From Bacillota bacterium (GTDB lineage: Bacteria; Bacillota; SHA-98; Ch115): 64,000 nucleotides of DNA. The notes under the pieces are model-generated. The model saw only the letters and a list, made by a program, of their open reading frames with translations. It had not been told where the DNA came from and searched no databases. Below, in pieces: positions 3,561 through 54,355 of this stretch. A program made the position numbers and the translations under genes. The stretch spans positions 62,001-126,000 of the forward strand of contig JABLXA010000008.1 of the NCBI GenBank assembly GCA_013178415.1, in the 5' to 3' direction. The first letter of the stretch is position 1. Each line of letters opens with the position of its first letter.

Positions 3561-6996
<3,436 letters not shown>

Positions 6997-7357
6997 CCTG
7001 CGCCGGTGAGAACTCAATAGGGCGAATTGGATGGGGAAACGGGGCATGGATACTCCTCTCGGCGGACGCAGCGTAGCCGGGGATGGTAGCACATATAGGT
7101 ATTAATGTCAATTCAAATTACCTCTATATGAGCCAAAATGTCACTTATATATGACACCATATGTAAATATGTTCAAAGTTCCGGAATGATGTGGATAAAT
7201 AAGACGCGCCGGGCCATGAATCCCTTTTTCATGTTCCGGCGCCCAATTCAATGGATTACTGACCTTTGAGTCTTCCAGGTTAGTCTTTATATCAGCCTGA
7301 CCGGCACACCATTTAGGTATGAAAATGTCAACGGTCTATTCTCCAATAATTAGATTA
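6997..7357. other. Convergent intergenic region with hairpin
   Basis: Lies between the convergent beta-galactosidase and aldo/keto reductase genes. A long stem at 7206-7242 (GCGCCGG...CCGGCGC outside, CATGAA...TTCATG inside) could end transcription from either side, though no T-run follows. A 35-bp element shared with another site in the window sits at 7053-7087. The rest is AT-rich with a CATATAT/ATATATG-like character and no gene. Confidence 0.45.
7053..7087 (+). repeat. 35-bp dispersed repeat, copy A
   Basis: Nearly identical (two mismatches by eye) to 19726-19760; the shared core is CTCGGCGGACGCAGCGTAG followed by CGGGGA and GGT. It lies 57 bp after the beta-galactosidase stop. Function unknown. 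Confidence 0.75.
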
Positions 7358-8359
7358 TTAGTTCGATGAGCCCGGGCAAAGCGTGATCTTATCGATCTCA
7401 TCGAGTTCTTCTTGGGTGAAGCTGGGGTTTGAGAGCGCAGCGACATTTTCCTCAATTTGCGAGACTCTTGATGCTCCCACGAGCACACTTGTGATCTGGG
7501 GAAGCCGCAGGGCCCACGCAAGAGCCATTTGCGCGAGGGTCTGGCCACGTCTCTTGGCGATCTCATTTAGTGCCCTTACCTTTGCGAGATTTTCCTCGGT
7601 AACGATCGCCTTCGCGCGTTTTTCTCCCCACACAGCCGCGGCCCTTGAATCGGCAGGTATGGTTCCGTTTAGATACTTATTGGTCAGAAGTCCCGCAGCA
7701 AGAGGGACAAATACTATAACCCCGGTACCTCTGCGTTCCGTGTGATCCAGGAGATCCCATTCGATCTTTCGATTGAGAAGGTTGTAGGCTGGCTGGTGAA
7801 TGGTGATTCTGGTAAGGCCTTCCCGATCAACAACCTCACATGCATGTTCGAAATGGGCCCCGGAGAAGCTGCTTACGCCTATATACAGCGCCTTTCCCTG
7901 ACGGACAATCAAATCTAGGGCCTCCATAGTCTCCTCGAGCGGAGTCACAGGGTCGGGCCTATGGGCATAGTATATGTCCACATAATCAAGGCCCAGCCTT
8001 TTTAGAGATTGGTCAAGGCTCGCGACCAGATATTTCTTTGAGAGCCATTCCCCATATGGACCTGGCCACATCCGCCAACCAGCCTTTGTGGAGATGATCA
8101 GCTCATCCCTGGGCATGGTCTTAAGGATCTTTCCGACTATGAGTTCCGCATTTCCTGGGGGAACGCCATAATTGTTGGCCAGGTCGAAGTGGGTGATGCC
8201 CAGGTCAAATGCCCTGTAAAGACATTCCCTCGCCACATCTTCTCCTTTATAACTTCCGAAAGTCTCATATGCCCCCAGCGAGATAGCCGGAAGCATGAGC
8301 CCGGATCGGCCACACCGTCGATATTGCATCGAATCATATCGGGCTGGTGAAAATTCCAT
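7358..8359 (-). CDS. Aldo/keto reductase, YghZ-like
   Basis: Cytoplasmic NAD(P)H-dependent oxidoreductase with the (alpha/beta)8 AKR fold, 333 aa. The catalytic tetrad can be placed at D59, Y64 (in FDLANNYG), K92 (STKAG) and H133 (YYAHRPDP). The C-terminal cofactor-binding part reads VLVGASRVSQIEENV. The N-terminal block MQYRRCGRSGLMLPAISLGAY and overall pattern resemble L-glyceraldehyde-3-phosphate reductase (YghZ/Gpr) and voltage-channel beta-subunit-like AKRs. The ATG at 8359 is supported by GAGGTGG nine bases upstream. It is the last gene of a minus-strand block with a sugar importer, separated from the unknown protein gene by 169 bp, so it may reduce a sugar aldehyde or keto-sugar taken up by that importer (inference). 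Confidence 0.9.
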   Translation of the reverse strand: MEFSPARYDSMQYRRCGRSGLMLPAISLGAYETFGSYKGEDVARECLYRAFDLGITHFDLANNYGVPPGNAELIVGKILKTMPRDELIISTKAGWRMWPGPYGEWLSKKYLVASLDQSLKRLGLDYVDIYYAHRPDPVTPLEETMEALDLIVRQGKALYIGVSSFSGAHFEHACEVVDREGLTRITIHQPAYNLLNRKIEWDLLDHTERRGTGVIVFVPLAAGLLTNKYLNGTIPADSRAAAVWGEKRAKAIVTEENLAKVRALNEIAKRRGQTLAQMALAWALRLPQITSVLVGASRVSQIEENVAALSNPSFTQEELDEIDKITLCPGSSN

Positions 8360-8528
8360 CCTATGTCCACCTCTATTTACTATGCAAATCCATGAATCCT
8401 AATAACTCCCAGGCCAAACGCCGGAGGAATCGGAAAGAGCCGGCAGGCGCATTGCTGCGTCCGATGAGAGGATCATCCGTCCCCATCTCTGCCCCCGGCG
8501 AGACAGACCGCGTCCAATTGTCGCCAAT

Positions 8529-9146
8529 CTAGAGTTTCTTGTAATATCCATGCACCGCCGCCACCCAGCGTCGAGCAAATTCCATTGATACTTCCGTATG
8601 GATATTCGTAGGAATGAATTTGCCCTGTGATCTCGCCTGGATCATTATTTGAACAAATTCGCCATCATCTGGTTGGGATAGGGGTACCGGGCGGATCCAA
8701 AGAGGCATTGGGACCTGCGTATTCAAATATATGTGGGCTTGCCCATAGGTTTTGGTCACATAATACAGGGCTCCCAGCACTTCTCGGGCGGGATATTCCA
8801 CCTCATCAACAGTAGCCCACCATCCCTCTTCCATGTACTGGAGCCATTCCGCGCGGAATTGGCAGTTCCTGAGTTCCTCCGCTTCGAGATAGATAGCCTC
8901 CTGGCCCTCCGCATTCTCGTTAGTATGGGGCCGAAGATATCCCAGGCTTATTTCCTTGAAGCCAGCAAGTTGCTCTCTCACTTTTCGTGGGACCACATCC
9001 AGATAGAGCCCTACTGTATGGTCTTCGCTCAGTGCTTCTATAGGGGACTTGACCCCTGGTTCTATTTCATCTATCACTGAAAACTTGTGAGCCATGAGTG
9101 GCTCGAGCGCATTGCCCGCTTCCTGCAGTCTCATCTCTTTATTCAA
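8529..9146 (-). CDS. Hypothetical protein in sugar importer block
   Basis: Protein of about 205 aa that I do not recognise. It has no signal peptide, no membrane segment and a balanced, soluble composition, with many aromatic residues in the second half (ALYYVTKTYGQAHIYL, PMPLWIRPV). The gene reads in the same direction as the importer genes, about 120 bp after the MalG-type permease, and is followed by the aldo/keto reductase. Start is a TTG at 9146 behind AAAGGATGAG, or the ATG four codons later. Position suggests a cytoplasmic sugar-processing or sugar-sensing role, for instance a small beta-barrel isomerase-like protein, but nothing in the sequence proves this. Confidence 0.7.
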   Translation of the reverse strand: MNKEMRLQEAGNALEPLMAHKFSVIDEIEPGVKSPIEALSEDHTVGLYLDVVPRKVREQLAGFKEISLGYLRPHTNENAEGQEAIYLEAEELRNCQFRAEWLQYMEEGWWATVDEVEYPAREVLGALYYVTKTYGQAHIYLNTQVPMPLWIRPVPLSQPDDGEFVQIMIQARSQGKFIPTNIHTEVSMEFARRWVAAVHGYYKKL

Positions 9147-46834: not shown

Positions 46835-47205
46835 CAGTCTGAAGCTGCATCAGTCGAAGCTGCATATATTTCTTCCTCATCCTCCTACTCAGGTTGGGGA
46901 AACCATCCCCCGAGTGGTTTCCCCAACAGCCTCCCTATGATTTCAGCTGAATATCGGTCTATGGACGATGCTCTCTATGGTTCGCGTAAAATCTAATGGG
47001 GCGGGAAACCGGGCCGCTCTTGCATATTAGGCAATCCCATGGTACAGTACTAGGCGAAAGGCAAACGCATCTTTTCCGCCAACGCTCTGGCATGTAAGTC
47101 CATGATAAGTTGCCGCGAGAATACACTTTGGCCCAACCTTAATCCGATTATGAGTATAGGTGTCCATCATCGAGAGGCCTGACCTTTTTGGAGGGAAGTG
47201 GGAGC
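46835..47205 (+). other. Intergenic region with strong hairpin
   Basis: A 13-bp perfect inverted repeat GTTGGGGAAACCA (46893-46905) / TGGTTTCCCCAAC (46915-46927) lies about 60 bp behind the response regulator; no T-run follows on either strand. The remaining 280 bp have no gene I can support. Confidence 0.55.
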
Positions 47206-48093
47206 ATGGATAGGGCAATAATGGCTGCATGCATTCAACTCTCGGCCGGCCCGTATTCCTCGCCCTTAGAATTTATGGAACACCTAGATGAGCTTTTCCG
47301 GCAGGCGTGCCATCAGGGCGCTGAGCTTATAGCTTTGCCCTCCTATAGAGGCCTTGCGGTGGAGCAATGGTTGGATATTCTTCGAGACCTGGCAGGAAAG
47401 CATAAGGTATTCATCGCCGGGGCAAGTGTCACCGTTCCCACTCCGCATGGTCCCCTGAATACAGCGTATCTCCTTTCGCCCGATGGCGCCCTCATCGGCT
47501 GGCAAGGCCAGACCCATCGAAATGTAGCGGAGCGGGCATTGGGCTATGCAAGGGATAATGATCTGAGGGTATTTACCACCCCGCTTGGGCGGATAGGTTT
47601 CGTTGTCGGCTCAGATGCATGGTATCCTGAGGTCTCGAGGATTCTCGCCCTTAAGGGGGCCGAGATTTTGGTGGCGCCCATGGCGGTAGAGAAGCCATAC
47701 TTGGAATGGGACCAAGTTCGTGGGATGTGGCAGGAAGTGCAGCAGAATCAAGTTTTCGCGTTGGAGAGCTGTCTTGTAGGAAGGATAGGCTCTATCGAAT
47801 TTGAGGGGCGATCCACGATTTATGCCACGTGTGAGATGACTCTGGATGAAAGTGGAATTTTGAGCCGGGTTTCCGATACATTTTCCGAATCTATCTTAGT
47901 GGCTGAGCTGTCTCCCGAGGCCCTTAAGAAAACGATACAGAAATTCAATATCTTCGACCAGATGAATCTAGACCTCTATAAACGCTATTTCCCCGGGATC
48001 TACCATCGCTCGGCCTGGCCAGATCCGCAGGCTTTCGTCCAGGACAGGTCTGACTCTAGGTCAACAGGAGGGGATGGGGCGAAATGGGGATGA
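47206..48093 (+). CDS. Catalytically inactive nitrilase-superfamily protein
   Basis: Protein of 295 aa with the carbon-nitrogen hydrolase fold: MAACIQLSAG, GAELIALPSYRG, FIAGASVTVP, TTPLGRIGFVVGSDAWYPE, LALKGAEILVAPMA, RGMWQEVQQNQVFALES. All three catalytic residues of the family are changed by alignment with the next gene: glutamate is S46 (LPSYRG), lysine is Q102 (GQTH), cysteine is G135 (VVGSDAWYPE). It can hardly hydrolyse amides or nitriles. The frame is otherwise intact, with a good ribosome binding site (GGAGGGAAGTGGGAG) before ATG 47206, and its last 10 bp overlap the active paralogue, so it is kept and probably made in equal amounts. A regulatory or structural partner role is likely (inference). 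Confidence 0.88.
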   Translation: MDRAIMAACIQLSAGPYSSPLEFMEHLDELFRQACHQGAELIALPSYRGLAVEQWLDILRDLAGKHKVFIAGASVTVPTPHGPLNTAYLLSPDGALIGWQGQTHRNVAERALGYARDNDLRVFTTPLGRIGFVVGSDAWYPEVSRILALKGAEILVAPMAVEKPYLEWDQVRGMWQEVQQNQVFALESCLVGRIGSIEFEGRSTIYATCEMTLDESGILSRVSDTFSESILVAELSPEALKKTIQKFNIFDQMNLDLYKRYFPGIYHRSAWPDPQAFVQDRSDSRSTGGDGAKWG

Positions 48094-49169
48094 AAGACTG
48101 GTGCAAAGAAAAGCTCTTCAATTCCTTCCTTATGATCAAGTCTCGCCCTTCCCTGGTATCAAGAATCATCGGAGAAAAACGCATAACAAGGAGCGACAAT
48201 TGCGATAGGTTGCCTTCGCCTCGCATCAGAGTCGCGGCCGTTCAGATGAAGCTTCACCTGGTAAAAGGGGCAAGAGAATACGTTGAGAAATTGTATGAGC
48301 TGACTAGACGTTCCGTTGAAGAAGGCGCGCAGCTGGTGGTCTTCCCGGAGTATTCAGGAACCCACCTCTTATCTCTTATTCCTGGTATCGAGAAAATGGC
48401 CAGCGGCACCATAGAAGAAGCCATAAGTCAGATGGTTGGAGAGGAAGTCAGAGTTTCTGAGGTGTTCAGGTCCATTTCGCCTGCGGTGAAACGAATCTAT
48501 GAGACCGCTTTTTCTACGTTAGCCAGAAGATTTGGGGTGTATATCATCACAGGAAGCGCTATCCTCGAAGATGACGATAAGCGAATGTATAATATGCTCT
48601 ATTTCTACGGGCCTGATGGAAGATTGATTTCCAGGCAGAAAAAGGTCCATTTGGTGCAGCTGGAATCCAAATGGGGGTTTGCAACCGGAAATGATATTCA
48701 GGTTGTGGACACTCCACTGGGCCGGCTGGCATTTCCCATCTGTATGGATGCCACATATTTCGAGACGTTTCGTATAGCCCTCCTGAAAGGGGCAGATCTC
48801 GTGATCATCCCATCGGCAAATAGCGAAGAGTATTATTTCTGGCGCACCATGCGCGGGATCTGGCCAAGGGTGCAAGAAAGCCAGGTCTATGGGGTCGGGG
48901 CCAATATGGTTGGTCATTTCATGGGAATCACCTTCACGGGAAGGAGCTGTCTGCTCGCTCCATTAGAACTCACTCCCAACCAGGATGGTTTTATCGCCAG
49001 AGCAAAGACATTCGATTCAGAGGAAATCGTGGTCGGGGAGTTTGACTATGAGAGGCTTCATGCATTTAGACGAAAGAATCCTCTGGAATTCAATGAGGAT
49101 CTCTATGCGAAGTATCTACCCTCATTGTATGAGGAGGCGCAGGCAAGGAGGAATGCCGGGGAGATCTGA
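48084..49169 (+). CDS. Carbon-nitrogen hydrolase (nitrilase superfamily), active form
   Basis: Cytoplasmic amidase or nitrilase-like enzyme of 361 aa. The triad is intact: E89 in LVVFPEYSG, K187 in RQKKVHL and C220 in FPICMDATYFE. A non-conserved N-terminal extension of about 45 residues precedes the domain (IRVAAVQMKLH). Substrate is not known; the family cleaves nitriles, aliphatic amides, carbamoyl compounds and omega-amides. The start ATG 48084 overlaps the end of the inactive paralogue by 10 bp (translational coupling). The two proteins share the RGxW..VQ.xQV block, so one arose from the other by duplication. No other genes of a pathway are adjacent; the next gene is convergent. Confidence 0.93.
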   Translation: MGMKDWCKEKLFNSFLMIKSRPSLVSRIIGEKRITRSDNCDRLPSPRIRVAAVQMKLHLVKGAREYVEKLYELTRRSVEEGAQLVVFPEYSGTHLLSLIPGIEKMASGTIEEAISQMVGEEVRVSEVFRSISPAVKRIYETAFSTLARRFGVYIITGSAILEDDDKRMYNMLYFYGPDGRLISRQKKVHLVQLESKWGFATGNDIQVVDTPLGRLAFPICMDATYFETFRIALLKGADLVIIPSANSEEYYFWRTMRGIWPRVQESQVYGVGANMVGHFMGITFTGRSCLLAPLELTPNQDGFIARAKTFDSEEIVVGEFDYERLHAFRRKNPLEFNEDLYAKYLPSLYEEAQARRNAGEI

Positions 49170-49774: not shown

Positions 49775-50054
49775 GCTTCACCTTCCATCTGGGTTTTCTT
49801 GCATATTTCAATATGAGACAATTGCGGATTATATCTGGCAAAACAATAACGGACTATGCCCGGCAAATCAGATATTTTGCCATGGTATGATGAAATCCTG
49901 CTTTGGGACGGCCATCCTCCTGGAGAGCATGGGAGGGACTGGCGTCGGGAGAAGAGGATTTTGACCTCCTGGGCCGTATTTCATATAAGAGGTGAATGAA
50001 AAGGAGGGGGAAGGCGCATTCCTCTTTTCGGGAGGTGAACTGCGCCGGTCGCTT

Positions 50055-51734
50055 GTGAGTAGCTCAATAAAGTATTCAATTGGCGTGGATTTTGGGACGG
50101 AATCGGGCCGGGCGGTGCTCGTGGATGTTGCTACTGGCAAAGAGATAGCGACGGCTGTCTACAAATATTCAAATGGCGTGATCGATGAGGTCTTGCCAGA
50201 TGGGAATACCAAGCTGCCACCAGATTTCGCCCTTCAGGATCCGGCGGATTACCTCAGGACATTTGAATTTACGATTCCGGCGGTTCTCAAAGAGTCAGGA
50301 GTGGACCCCCATGATGTGATAGGGATTGGGATTGATTTCACGGCCTGCACAATTCTCCCCACCTATGCAGATGGAACTCCATTATGCTTTGATGAAAGAT
50401 TCAGGAGCAATCCTCATGCATGGGTGAAGCTTTGGAAACACCATGCAGCCCAGCCTGAGGCCAATAAGCTGAATGCCATAGCCCGCGAGCGGGGTGAGGG
50501 ATTTCTTCCTCGCTATGGCGGCAAGATATCATCTGAATGGTTCTTCCCGAAGGTATGGCAAGTGCTAGATGAGGCGCCGGAGATCTATCAGGCCGCGGAT
50601 CGTTTCATCGAAGGGGCGGACTGGGTGGTCTGGCAGCTCACTGGGGTTGAGACTCGCAATTCCTGCACCGCGGGGTATAAGGCAATATGGAGTAAAAGAG
50701 AGGGATTTCCAAGTAACGAGTTCTTCAAGGCTCTGGACCCGAGGCTTGAGCATGTTGTGGATGAAAAGATGTCGCGCGTCATCACGCCGCTGGGAACAAG
50801 AGCCGGAGGAATAACCCCAGAGATGGCCCGGAAGATTGGTCTCATCCCTGGGACAGCTGTCGCTGTGGGGAATGTTGACGCGCATGTTGCAGTTCCGGCG
50901 ACAACAGTTGTTGAGCCCAACAAGATGGTTATGGTCATGGGAACCTCCATTTGCCACATGGTAGTCAGCGATGAACTCAGGCTCGTGGAAGGCATGTGCG
51001 GAGTGGTCGAAGATGGTATTCTGCCTGGTTTCTATGGGTATGAAGCTGGCCAGTCGGCGGTTGGAGATATTTTCGCCTGGTTTGTGGAAAATTGTGTCCC
51101 GGGACGATATGAACAAGAAGCCTGCGAGCGCGGCATGAATATACACGAATTGCTCGAGGGGAAAGCGAAAGCCCTTCAGCCGGGCGAAAGTGGAGTTCTT
51201 GCCCTTGATTGGTGGAATGGAAACAGGTCCATACTTGTTGATGCGGATCTCACAGGACTCCTTATTGGGTGCACGCTCGCCACGAAGCCTGAAGAGATAT
51301 ATCGGGCTCTCATCGAAGCAACTGCGTTTGGCACATATACGATAATCCTCGCTTTTGAAGAGAAGGGCATTCCGATAAAGGAGCTATATGCATGCGGGGG
51401 ATTGCCGGAGAGGAATAAGCTCCTCATGCATATTTATGCAGATGTCACGGGCAGGGAAATCAGGGTATCAGCCTCATCTCAGACTCCAGCTCTCGGTTCA
51501 GCCATGTTCGGAGCTGTGGCGGCAGGCAAGGCGGCGGGGGGCTATGATAATATTGTGGATGCCGCAAAACACATGGCACACCTGAAGGATGAAGTTTTCA
51601 GGCCCGATATGGAAAATCATAGAATATACCAGAAGCTTTTCCGCGAATATCGCAAGCTACATGATTATCTCGGCCGCGGGGCGAACGATGTGATGAAGGT
51701 TTTGAAGGCGATAAAGGCTGAAGTTAGGGGGTAA
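50055..51734 (+). CDS. araB: Ribulokinase
   Basis: Phosphorylates L-ribulose with ATP to L-ribulose-5-phosphate in L-arabinose breakdown. About 559 aa, the usual length. Motifs: [19 protein letters not shown] at the N-terminus (GTESGR is typical of ribulokinases), [41 protein letters not shown] and [20 protein letters not shown]. The frame opens at GTG 49992, but GTG 50055 gives the family N-terminus; a GGGAGGTG motif is 17 bases upstream, rather far, so the exact start is open. It is followed by araM and araD. An L-arabinose isomerase gene (araA) is not in the window. An inverted repeat GGCAAA/TTTGCC at 49862-49881 may be regulatory. Confidence 0.95.
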
Positions 51735-51758
51735 GGCCTGTCCGGGGGGAAAGATCAA

Positions 51759-51874
51759 CCTGAGAGGGTGAGGTTCATCTAACAGATACGATCTGCCTGA
51801 GAGATTGAGGCCCGCCCGAGAGGGAGGGCCCATCGGAGGCGCAATATCCGCCTGAGGAGGCAGGTCCGCTTGTG
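51759..51874 (+). repeat. Degenerate repeats with CCTGAGAG core between araB and araM
   Basis: Four related segments begin near 51759 (CCTGAGAGGGTGAGG), 51796 (CCTGAGAGATTGAGG), 51815 (CCCGAGAGGGAGGG) and 51851 (CCTGAGGAGGCAGG). Each contains a GAGG-type sequence. They fill most of the 157-bp spacer between the two genes. Confidence 0.6.
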
Positions 51875-51891
51875 ATCACCGGGGGCGAAGC

Positions 51892-53529
51892 ATGAAAAAT
51901 AGCATGAGACATATAGAGGAATTGTTGGGCAGGTCATTTAATTGCGAATGCGGCAGGAAACATCATGTGCCCATTCAACAGGTTGTTATAGCGGATGACG
52001 CGATGGAGCGCATGAGCGAGTTTGTCACTGCACGCATGGGTGAATTTATCGCCGCGCGCATGGGTGGGTTTGTCGGGCGGCCCAAATTCCCGGCTGGAGA
52101 TTCGGGTTTAAAGGCACTTCTCGTCGCGGACCGGAATACCTATGCAGTGGCCGGAGAAGCCGCGAGGGAAGCTCTCGAGCGCGCTGGTTGCGATGTCGAT
52201 GTTTTGATCCTGGGGAAAACTGACGGTAGTGTAGGGAGCGATCAGAGTGTAAGGGGCAACCAGGGAGCAGGGTGCAGCGGAAATGTCGGGGGAAATCCCG
52301 ATGGCGAGGGCGATCAGCGCGCAGGGTGTAATGACGATGCTGGAGATAATCAAAATACCGCGGGCGATCATAACGTGCTCGAGGCGGATGAAGAAGCCAT
52401 AAGAAAAGTCCTTGCACGGCTTTCGGATATGCCAGCGCTGGCCTATGATTCACGGGCGAGAATAGACTTCAACGATGCGGCCAAGGTCGGATCATCCAGA
52501 GCGCGTTATGGCTTTGCCATTGCCGTAGGTTCCGGGACCATCAATGATATCACGAAGTATGCCAGTTTCAAGGCAAGCGTGCCATATATCGGCGTTCCCA
52601 CAGCTCCATCAATGGATGGCTATACATCTTCGGTGGCAGCGCTCTTGCTTGGCGGTTTCAAGAAAACGCTGCCAGCGGCTCCTCCCCTGGCCGTGTTCGC
52701 TGACCTATCTGTACTGGCACGGGCCCCTTCTGATATGATAGCCGCCGGATATGGCGATCTTCTTGGAAAGCTTACCGCAGGAAGCGATTGGGTGCTTTCA
52801 AAGCTCGTAAATAGTGAATATTACTGTGAATTCGCCGCCAACATCGCAAGATCCATCGCATTTGAATGTCTCGAGAAGAGTGCGGAGATCAAGGCGCGCA
52901 CAAAGGCTGCCATCAAGAGTCTGACAGAAGGGCTGGTCTGGTCTGGGATAGCCATGTTGATGGTAGGCAATTCACGTCCCGCTTCAGGCGCGGAGCATCA
53001 TATTTCACACTATTGGGAAATGAAATCTCTTCGTGAAGGACGGCCGCAGCCTTTTCATGGCGTCAAGGTGGGCGTTGCCGCAGTCCTTGTCGCGAAACTA
53101 TATCGTGAAGTGTTAAAGCTCGATCCTGGCTCATTCGATCTCTCCAAGCTGAAGGAAAGGCACCCCTCGCGAGAAGAACGGGAGGTCAGAATACGGCGGT
53201 TTTACGGCCCCCTGGCTGAGGATGCCATCGCTGAGACCGCTGGCAAATACCTTTCCTGGGAGGAACGGGAGGCGAAGCTACGAGAGGTTTTTGGCCGCTG
53301 GGATGAGATCGTTGCTATGCTGCGGAAGATCGCGCCTGATCCAAAGAGGGTGAGGCATGCCCTGGCGGAGGCTGGTGCGCCTTGCACGCCGGATGCCATA
53401 GGTTTCAGCCGCGGCTGGGTTTGGGAGGCTTTGACGAATGCCAAGGATCTCAGGATGAGATTTACAGTCCTTGATTTTGCGGATTTGCTCGGGTGTCTTG
53501 ATCAGATTGTCGAGCATCTGACTATGTAG
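51892..53529 (+). CDS. araM: sn-Glycerol-1-phosphate dehydrogenase-like AraM with repeat insertions
   Basis: NAD(P)-dependent, metal-binding dehydrogenase of the glycerol-1-phosphate / DHQ-synthase-like family; AraM proteins sit in arabinose operons of Bacillota. Core motifs are present: LLVADRNTYAVAGE, AVGSGTINDITKYAS, PTAPSMDGYTSS, GYGDLLGKLTAGSDW (metal aspartate), SGAEHHISHYW and QPFHGVKVG (metal histidines). At 545 aa it is about 150 residues longer than relatives (about 390-400). The surplus is mainly: three 8-residue repeats near residues 40-63 (RMSEFVTA, RMGEFIAA, RMGGFVGR), a Gly/Asn/Asp-rich insert at about 109-162 (SDQSVRGNQGAGC, GDNQNTAGDHN), and about 25 residues near 180-205. 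These lie at the surface of the nucleotide-binding domain, so activity may survive. Confidence 0.9.
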   Translation: MKNSMRHIEELLGRSFNCECGRKHHVPIQQVVIADDAMERMSEFVTARMGEFIAARMGGFVGRPKFPAGDSGLKALLVADRNTYAVAGEAAREALERAGCDVDVLILGKTDGSVGSDQSVRGNQGAGCSGNVGGNPDGEGDQRAGCNDDAGDNQNTAGDHNVLEADEEAIRKVLARLSDMPALAYDSRARIDFNDAAKVGSSRARYGFAIAVGSGTINDITKYASFKASVPYIGVPTAPSMDGYTSSVAALLLGGFKKTLPAAPPLAVFADLSVLARAPSDMIAAGYGDLLGKLTAGSDWVLSKLVNSEYYCEFAANIARSIAFECLEKSAEIKARTKAAIKSLTEGLVWSGIAMLMVGNSRPASGAEHHISHYWEMKSLREGRPQPFHGVKVGVAAVLVAKLYREVLKLDPGSFDLSKLKERHPSREEREVRIRRFYGPLAEDAIAETAGKYLSWEEREAKLREVFGRWDEIVAMLRKIAPDPKRVRHALAEAGAPCTPDAIGFSRGWVWEALTNAKDLRMRFTVLDFADLLGCLDQIVEHLTM

Positions 53530-53653
53530 ATGGCCGGGCTTGATGGGATGGCTGTGCGTGACGCGCTTGATCGGCAACCGCACTGACATGGCGGCGCTAT
53601 CTTTCAACTCTGGGTCTGGCTATTTCTATCCAATCTATAGGGAATAGCTCGAC

Positions 53654-53689
53654 TTGGAGGCGGATAGCAGGTTGGAGGCGGATAGCAGG
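53654..53689 (+). repeat. Perfect 18-bp tandem duplication at the araD start
   Basis: TTGGAGGCGGATAGCAGG occurs twice without gap (53654-53671 and 53672-53689), and the ATG of araD follows at once. Each copy carries a GGAGG ribosome binding site; only the second is near the start. A TTG in the first copy is in frame, so the duplication could also add 12 residues. Confidence 0.9.
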
Positions 53690-54355
53690 ATGCTGGAAAG
53701 ATTGAGGGAAGAGGTCTGGAAGATGAATCTGGAGTTGCCCAAGAACGGCCTTGTCACCATGACGAGCGGGAATGTAAGTGGTCGTGATTTCGGGACGGGT
53801 TATGTTGTGATCAAACCCAGTGGAATAAGGTATGAGGACTTGAGGCCTGAGGATATGGTTGTGGTGAACCTCGATGGGGAGATAGTAGAGGGCCATCTCA
53901 AACCTTCCGTTGATACCTCGACACATCTTTATGTATATAAGCACATGCCTGAGGTCGGGGGAATCGTCCATACTCATTCCCCCTACGCCACTGCCTTTGC
54001 TGCTCTTGGGCGGCCGATCCCGGTCTATCTTACCGCTATGGCCGACGAATTTGGTGGCCCAATTCCAATTGGTCGTTACGCGAAAATCGGCGGAGAGGAA
54101 ATAGGGCAGGTCATCGTTGAATCAATTGGCAAGAGCCCGGCCATTCTCATGAAGAATCATGGCGTTTTCACCATCGGCCCTACACCATCGGCCGCATTGA
54201 AAGCAGCGGTAATGGCAGAGGATGTAGCCCGCACCGTTCATCTAGCCCTTCAGCTTGGGCAGCCCGATGAGATACCGGCCGAAGAGGTGGAGCGGGCGCA
54301 CAGGCAATATGTTGAAAAGTATGGGCAGGCGACCGCTCGTTCCGTCAACCATTAA
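53690..54355 (+). CDS. araD: L-ribulose-5-phosphate 4-epimerase / class II aldolase family
   Basis: Converts L-ribulose-5-phosphate to D-xylulose-5-phosphate, the last step of arabinose entry into the pentose phosphate pathway. About 221 aa, a normal length. Motifs of the zinc-dependent family: LVTMTSGNVSGRD, VVIKPSGIRYEDL, PSVDTSTHLYVYKHM, GIVHTHSPYATAFA (zinc histidines) and LMKNHGVFTIGPTPSAALKA (third histidine). Gene order araB-araM-araD supports the epimerase rather than fuculose aldolase assignment. The start is ATG 53690 or an in-frame TTG 36 bp upstream inside the 18-bp duplication. Confidence 0.93.
   Translation: MLERLREEVWKMNLELPKNGLVTMTSGNVSGRDFGTGYVVIKPSGIRYEDLRPEDMVVVNLDGEIVEGHLKPSVDTSTHLYVYKHMPEVGGIVHTHSPYATAFAALGRPIPVYLTAMADEFGGPIPIGRYAKIGGEEIGQVIVESIGKSPAILMKNHGVFTIGPTPSAALKAAVMAEDVARTVHLALQLGQPDEIPAEEVERAHRQYVEKYGQATARSVNH

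Follow-up and report, generated by a model that had tools for sequence, protein, structure and literature searches.

The window, by which we mean the whole 64,000-nucleotide stretch of DNA analysed here, carries two overlapping genes of the nitrilase superfamily on its forward strand. The first gene, A (positions 47206 to 48093, 295 aa), encodes a putative pseudoenzyme subunit that has the nitrilase fold and lacks the catalytic triad, and the second, B (48084 to 49169, 361 aa), encodes a protein with an intact triad that was assigned to the superfamily by Pfam and by alignment with its relatives. Both proteins exceed the Pfam CN_hydrolase cut-off of 23.2 bits (A, 74.6 bits, E 1e-20; B, 88.8 bits, E 4.9e-25) and they are 30% identical when aligned over their length (E 1e-42), which bears out the overlapping paralogue pair proposed in the first-pass annotation of this DNA. 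Each gene has a likely, Shine-Dalgarno-like ribosome binding site, GGAGGG at 47190 to 47195 for A and AGGAGGGG at 48066 to 48073, within the 3' end of A, for B. The 10-bp overlap given in that annotation holds if B starts at the ATG at 48084. An in-frame ATG at 48090 is an alternative start, and would leave a 4-bp ATGA overlap like that seen in many relatives.

Alignment of the two proteins places Ser46 of A (codon 47341 to 47343) opposite Glu89 of B (48348 to 48350), the general base of the triad; Gln102 (47509 to 47511) opposite the catalytic Lys187 (48642 to 48644); and Gly135 (47608 to 47610) opposite the nucleophile Cys220 (48741 to 48743), which lies in the motif CMDATYFET. The second conserved Glu of the fold is present in both, as E109 in A and E194 in B. 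B has an N-terminal extension of about 45 residues that is absent from A, and an insert that follows the Glu strand and precedes the next helix, a region that is shorter in A. The best sequence and fold matches of the pair are N-carbamoylputrescine amidohydrolase and the Pyrococcus nitrilase/amidase PH0642. Neither protein reaches the curated cut-offs of the NCBIfam nitrilase/amidase equivalogs (AguB, archaeal nitrilase and others). The best scores were 63.9 bits for A, compared to the 410 required, and 79.3 bits for B, compared to 500, and with the cut-offs missed by so much no named enzyme fits. Downstream of the pair, at 49992 to 54355, an FGGY sugar kinase, a dehydrogenase of the Fe-ADH_2 family and a class II aldolase-like ORF lie in a row that resembles a pentose operon.

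Conservation of the pair and its catalytic residues

We searched the genomes of 84,980 bacterial and archaeal species using the alignment of B proteins and found 148 stretches encoding relatives, of which the best 80 were retained. Together with loci from whole genomes, these gave 90 distinct B loci. A lies immediately upstream of B on the same strand in 84 of the 90, as separate genes in 78 and fused in 6. In the other six loci a contig ends less than 250 bp from B, leaving 84 that are testable, and the order is the same in all 84 of these, which is far beyond chance. The median spacing between A and B is -4 bp. More than half of the separate pairs overlap, 17 of them by exactly 4 bp. Nearly all of the best 80 of the 148 relatives are labelled Bacillota, and include Syntrophomonadaceae, Dethiobacter, Halanaerobiales, Thermovorax, Acididesulfobacillus, Thermaerobacter and Symbiobacterium. 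About 72 of 398 genomes sampled evenly across the phylum contain the pair. Among further two-gene loci from this sample, A precedes B in 46 of 47; the exception is a second pair in genome G040. The pair thus occurs in many anaerobic and heat-loving Bacillota, nearly always with both members, and the fixed gene order that had been anticipated from the window alone is observed across genomes.

Loss of one partner is rare, as had also been expected. The only lone A found is L185 (contig C95 of G109, positions 6328 to 7131), in a genome that is 97% complete, and a solitary B-like gene in G169 is very divergent. Four other solitary genes (L159, L167, L168 and L170) have an intact triad and the motif ICYEGMFP and score about equally against the A and B profiles; they are candidates for an ancestral-like homomer. 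We found no relatives in viral contigs, and rejected viral carriage of the pair on this basis. Co-transfer in a polycistron with polA, mutM, coaE, icd or ruv genes was rejected as well because these neighbours are lineage-specific only.

The contrast between the two proteins in the window extends to their relatives. We tallied 111 distinct A and 117 distinct B sequences, leaving out two strongly diverged sets, those of G337 and, in family f27, of the second pair (G040, G120 and G206). The full Glu-Lys-Cys triad is present in none of the 111 A homologues, in agreement with the proposal that A always lacks it. The Lys is missing from all 111 and replaced by Gln in 106, Gly takes the place of the nucleophile in 83, and Ala or Gly takes that of the Glu in most. 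The claim that A had lost all three residues stands for the window's genome and for most relatives, but not for all: the Glu is retained in 4 of the 111 and the Cys in 10, of which nine belong to family f3. In B, the Glu, Lys and second Glu are present in 117 of 117 sequences and the Cys in 116, so that the triad inferred for the window's B is intact in 116 of 117 relatives.

Several further residues of A are conserved, namely Q102, T103, H104, E109, P141 and C209. The Lys-to-Gln replacement in nearly every A, inside a QxQTH motif and together with the retained Glu, indicates conservation of the dead pocket as well. Beyond the nucleophile elbow, the next helix has diverged to one fixed form in A (GMWQxVQQNQ) and another in B (RGIWPRVQE), as would be expected if the two subunits had specialised for each other. 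In a few lineages the second gene has also lost catalytic residues: B lacks the Cys in G140, is degraded in G337, and in family f27 (L019/L183 on contig C1 of G040, L186 in G120 and L187 in G206) the second gene of the pair is missing one to three residues of the triad. These cases suggest that the pair serves without catalysis in some lineages.

Fusions, predicted structures and gene neighbourhood

A and B form a single open reading frame of 660 to 830 residues in four genomes of family f3 (G004, G005, G006 and G014). A fifth fusion in this family, in G008, is cut by the end of its contig, and all five are one clade within f3. A and B are also fused in L069 (the same locus as G082) and in L077. 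These two sit elsewhere in the B tree, beside unfused or unresolved relatives, which suggests that the fusion arose at least three times. Given that A and B are almost always found together and are sometimes fused, the dead A most likely serves B as an integral partner subunit.

Predicted structures are consistent with this. AlphaFold2, run with 58 A sequences, predicted that A adopts the whole nitrilase fold (mean pLDDT 90.3, pTM 0.88), and a Foldseek search of the PDB with this model returned N-carbamoylputrescine amidohydrolase as the best match (E 4e-21), along with related amidases. The AlphaFold model of the natural fusion L037 had a pLDDT of 80.3 and a pTM of 0.78 over 732 residues, about 130 of which are a disordered linker and about 600 ordered. 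By simple arithmetic a single placed domain would give a pTM of only about 0.45, compared to about 0.78 for both, and the halves are therefore predicted as docked. The network may here be recalling the well-known homodimers of nitrilases. The solved structure of one homologue shows the entrance to the active site surrounded by the dimer mate, and the C-termini swapped between subunits (PMC4812014). If A took the place of this mate, it would build part of the B pocket without any catalysis of its own.

A and B are, in our view, likely to be the two subunits of a carbon-nitrogen hydrolase, most likely an amidase, that is an obligate hetero-oligomer and in which A serves as a non-catalytic dimer mate resembling a prozyme. 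B would carry the only active site. A, having kept the nitrilase fold, would replace the second subunit of the standard nitrilase dimer, in which each mate normally walls the mouth of the other's active site and exchanges a C-terminal arm with it. In this position A probably completes the substrate channel of B and stabilises B in the active conformation, and the conserved dead pocket of A (Gln-x-Gln-Thr-His and the kept Glu) may bind a ligand. The three fusions and the confident two-domain model of L037 support the heteromer suggested in the first-pass annotation, in which A may regulate B, act as a scaffold or line the pocket.

An alternative reading of the conserved pocket is that A works apart from B, as a sensor or ligand-binding protein or through a new activity gained by its altered pocket, and is only co-expressed with B. 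The constraint on Q102 and the other conserved residues would fit this reading, as would the orphan A in G109. On the other hand, A has been fused to B three times, the two are not separated in any of the 84 loci from the best 80 of 148 scan stretches and the whole genomes, and G109 is the only place where we found A apart from B. We therefore regard an independent A as unlikely, though deserving some weight. A dimer mate with a conserved pocket remains our preferred reading.

The genes around the pair suggest a metabolic setting. A GH125-like six-hairpin enzyme is encoded near the pair in 37 of the 90 loci (best 80 of 148 scan stretches plus genome loci) and an MFS transporter in 33 of the same 90, some with scores like those of sugar symporters. 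The GH125-like gene matches PF06824 with 68 to 88 bits (cut-off 23.4), mostly over the C-terminal half only, which suggests a relative of the GH125 alpha-mannosidases rather than a typical member. Of the 398 genomes sampled, B and the GH125-like gene occur together in 53, B alone in 19 and the GH125-like gene alone in 7. Thus, 53 of the 60 bearers of the GH125-like gene also have B (odds ratio 127, uncorrected for phylogeny), including genomes in which they lie far from each other or on separate contigs. There are exceptions, among them the window's genome, which carries the pair and in which no GH125-like gene was found at the threshold used. This link is a hint of a glyco-amide route acting on an amide-bearing sugar compound. 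A gene for a PIG-L/BshB1-like deacetylase lies just after B in L071, L073, L086 and L107, and also near L074, where it exceeds the BshB1 cut-off. A general link to bacillithiol, which these deacetylase genes suggested, was rejected, as BshC is found in about 20 of the 72 pair-bearing genomes compared to about 14 expected; it is absent from the window's genome and from family f3.

These neighbours could also mean that A and B belong to one pathway without touching, their coupling being confined to translation. The short overlaps would give such translational coupling, and the GH125-like enzyme and the transporter are clustered with the pair as well. A second step of nitrilase chemistry is unavailable to A, which lacks the triad, and both the fusions of A to B and the known dimerisation of the fold argue for contact. 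We judge linkage without contact to be improbable. In locus L163 (contig C12 of G264, positions 5821 to 9057), a single 1078-aa frame joins B to the GH125-like glycosidase, with an A gene just upstream. A whole pair that acts as a non-catalytic binding or scaffold complex for the glycosidase would be in keeping with this fusion and with the few lineages in which B is dead too. We judge it very improbable: all four conserved residues (Glu, Lys, second Glu and Cys) are kept by 116 of 117 B sequences, which is hard to explain without catalysis.

Returning to the hetero-oligomeric hydrolase, the broader picture that we can offer is of a hitherto undescribed family of heteromeric amidases in bacteria, whose pseudo-nitrilase subunit, ancient and obligate, both completes the active site of its paralogue and controls it. 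The enzyme would act together with a sugar-type transporter and the GH125-like glycosidase on an amide-bearing sugar compound. We propose this tentatively, as a possibility falling somewhat short of an even chance.

Selection on A and its history

The first-pass annotation had predicted purifying selection on A, and the substitution rates agree. Nei-Gojobori dN/dS between close relatives is 0.06 to 0.3 for A and 0.05 to 0.28 for B in nearly all pairs, well below 1. The highest value for A, 0.49, comes from one pair with long, differently predicted N-termini, the ends of which are poorly comparable. A evolves somewhat faster than B, with a mean identity of 34% compared to 44%. A forms one clade with 100/100 support in a tree built from a clean set of rows, and B forms one clade with 99/100 support in a larger tree. 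In this larger tree, which was the first built, A was not cleanly apart from the outgroup; that outgroup contained the proteins of G040's second pair, and the tree included long branches. The single, fully supported A clade is most simply explained by loss of the Lys once, before these lineages split, and the loss would then be ancient. A topology in which A and B together stand apart from the single nitrilases was rejected (p-AU 0.009), but the long-branch B-like single L152 was counted among the singles, and A and B may still be sister groups. Distances among A proteins and among B proteins are correlated (r = 0.89, compared to a permutation maximum of 0.08), a result that shared species history alone would also produce. 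That A is a duplicate decaying into a pseudogene, as its lost catalytic residues and faster evolution might suggest, has a negligible chance of being right and is ruled out by its dN/dS and its age, to which may be added a reading frame that is open in every complete locus and a fixed position beside B.

Comparison with known systems

A and B share their fold with the nitrilase superfamily (PF00795), including N-carbamoylputrescine amidohydrolase and PH0642, and B shares with these enzymes the Glu-Lys-Cys triad and the second Glu. These enzymes are established as homo-oligomers in which every subunit is active (PMC4812014), whereas here one paralogous subunit is always triad-less. Automatic annotation would label such genes simply as nitrilases. 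If confirmed, the pair would represent an old pseudo-subunit in this superfamily that is widespread in Bacillota; it also points to a pathway, as yet uncharacterised, in which a GH125-like glycosidase takes part too. Most work on pseudoenzyme partners concerns a small number of eukaryotic enzymes, with far less on bacteria. The separate proteins, single-chain fusions and pairs in which the normally live subunit is dead would then be a ready comparative set for studying the control that an inactive subunit exerts over an active one.

The nearest precedent that we found is NIT4 of grasses. NIT4A and NIT4B are, like A and B, nitrilase paralogues, and their activity is reported to depend on heteromer formation (PMC3537687). 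They differ from A and B in being plant enzymes with no operon or fusion. Full-text searches of open-licence papers found no report of a pseudoenzyme subunit in the nitrilase superfamily, and an earlier report may exist elsewhere. We know of no report that NIT4A or NIT4B is triad-less.

In its presumed mode of action the pair most resembles the prozymes of trypanosomes. In trypanosomes, a dead paralogue of S-adenosylmethionine decarboxylase (AdoMetDC), the prozyme, and a dead deoxyhypusine synthase paralogue each activate the live enzyme by forming a heteromer with it (PMC5201418, PMC3663545). As with A and B, a catalytically dead paralogue is conserved alongside a live one, and the bacterial pair would work in a similar way. 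The prozymes belong to unrelated enzyme families, are eukaryotic and are encoded outside operons. A dead paralogue as an obligate partner is thus a known kind of arrangement, while its occurrence in a nitrilase, and on this scale, looks new.
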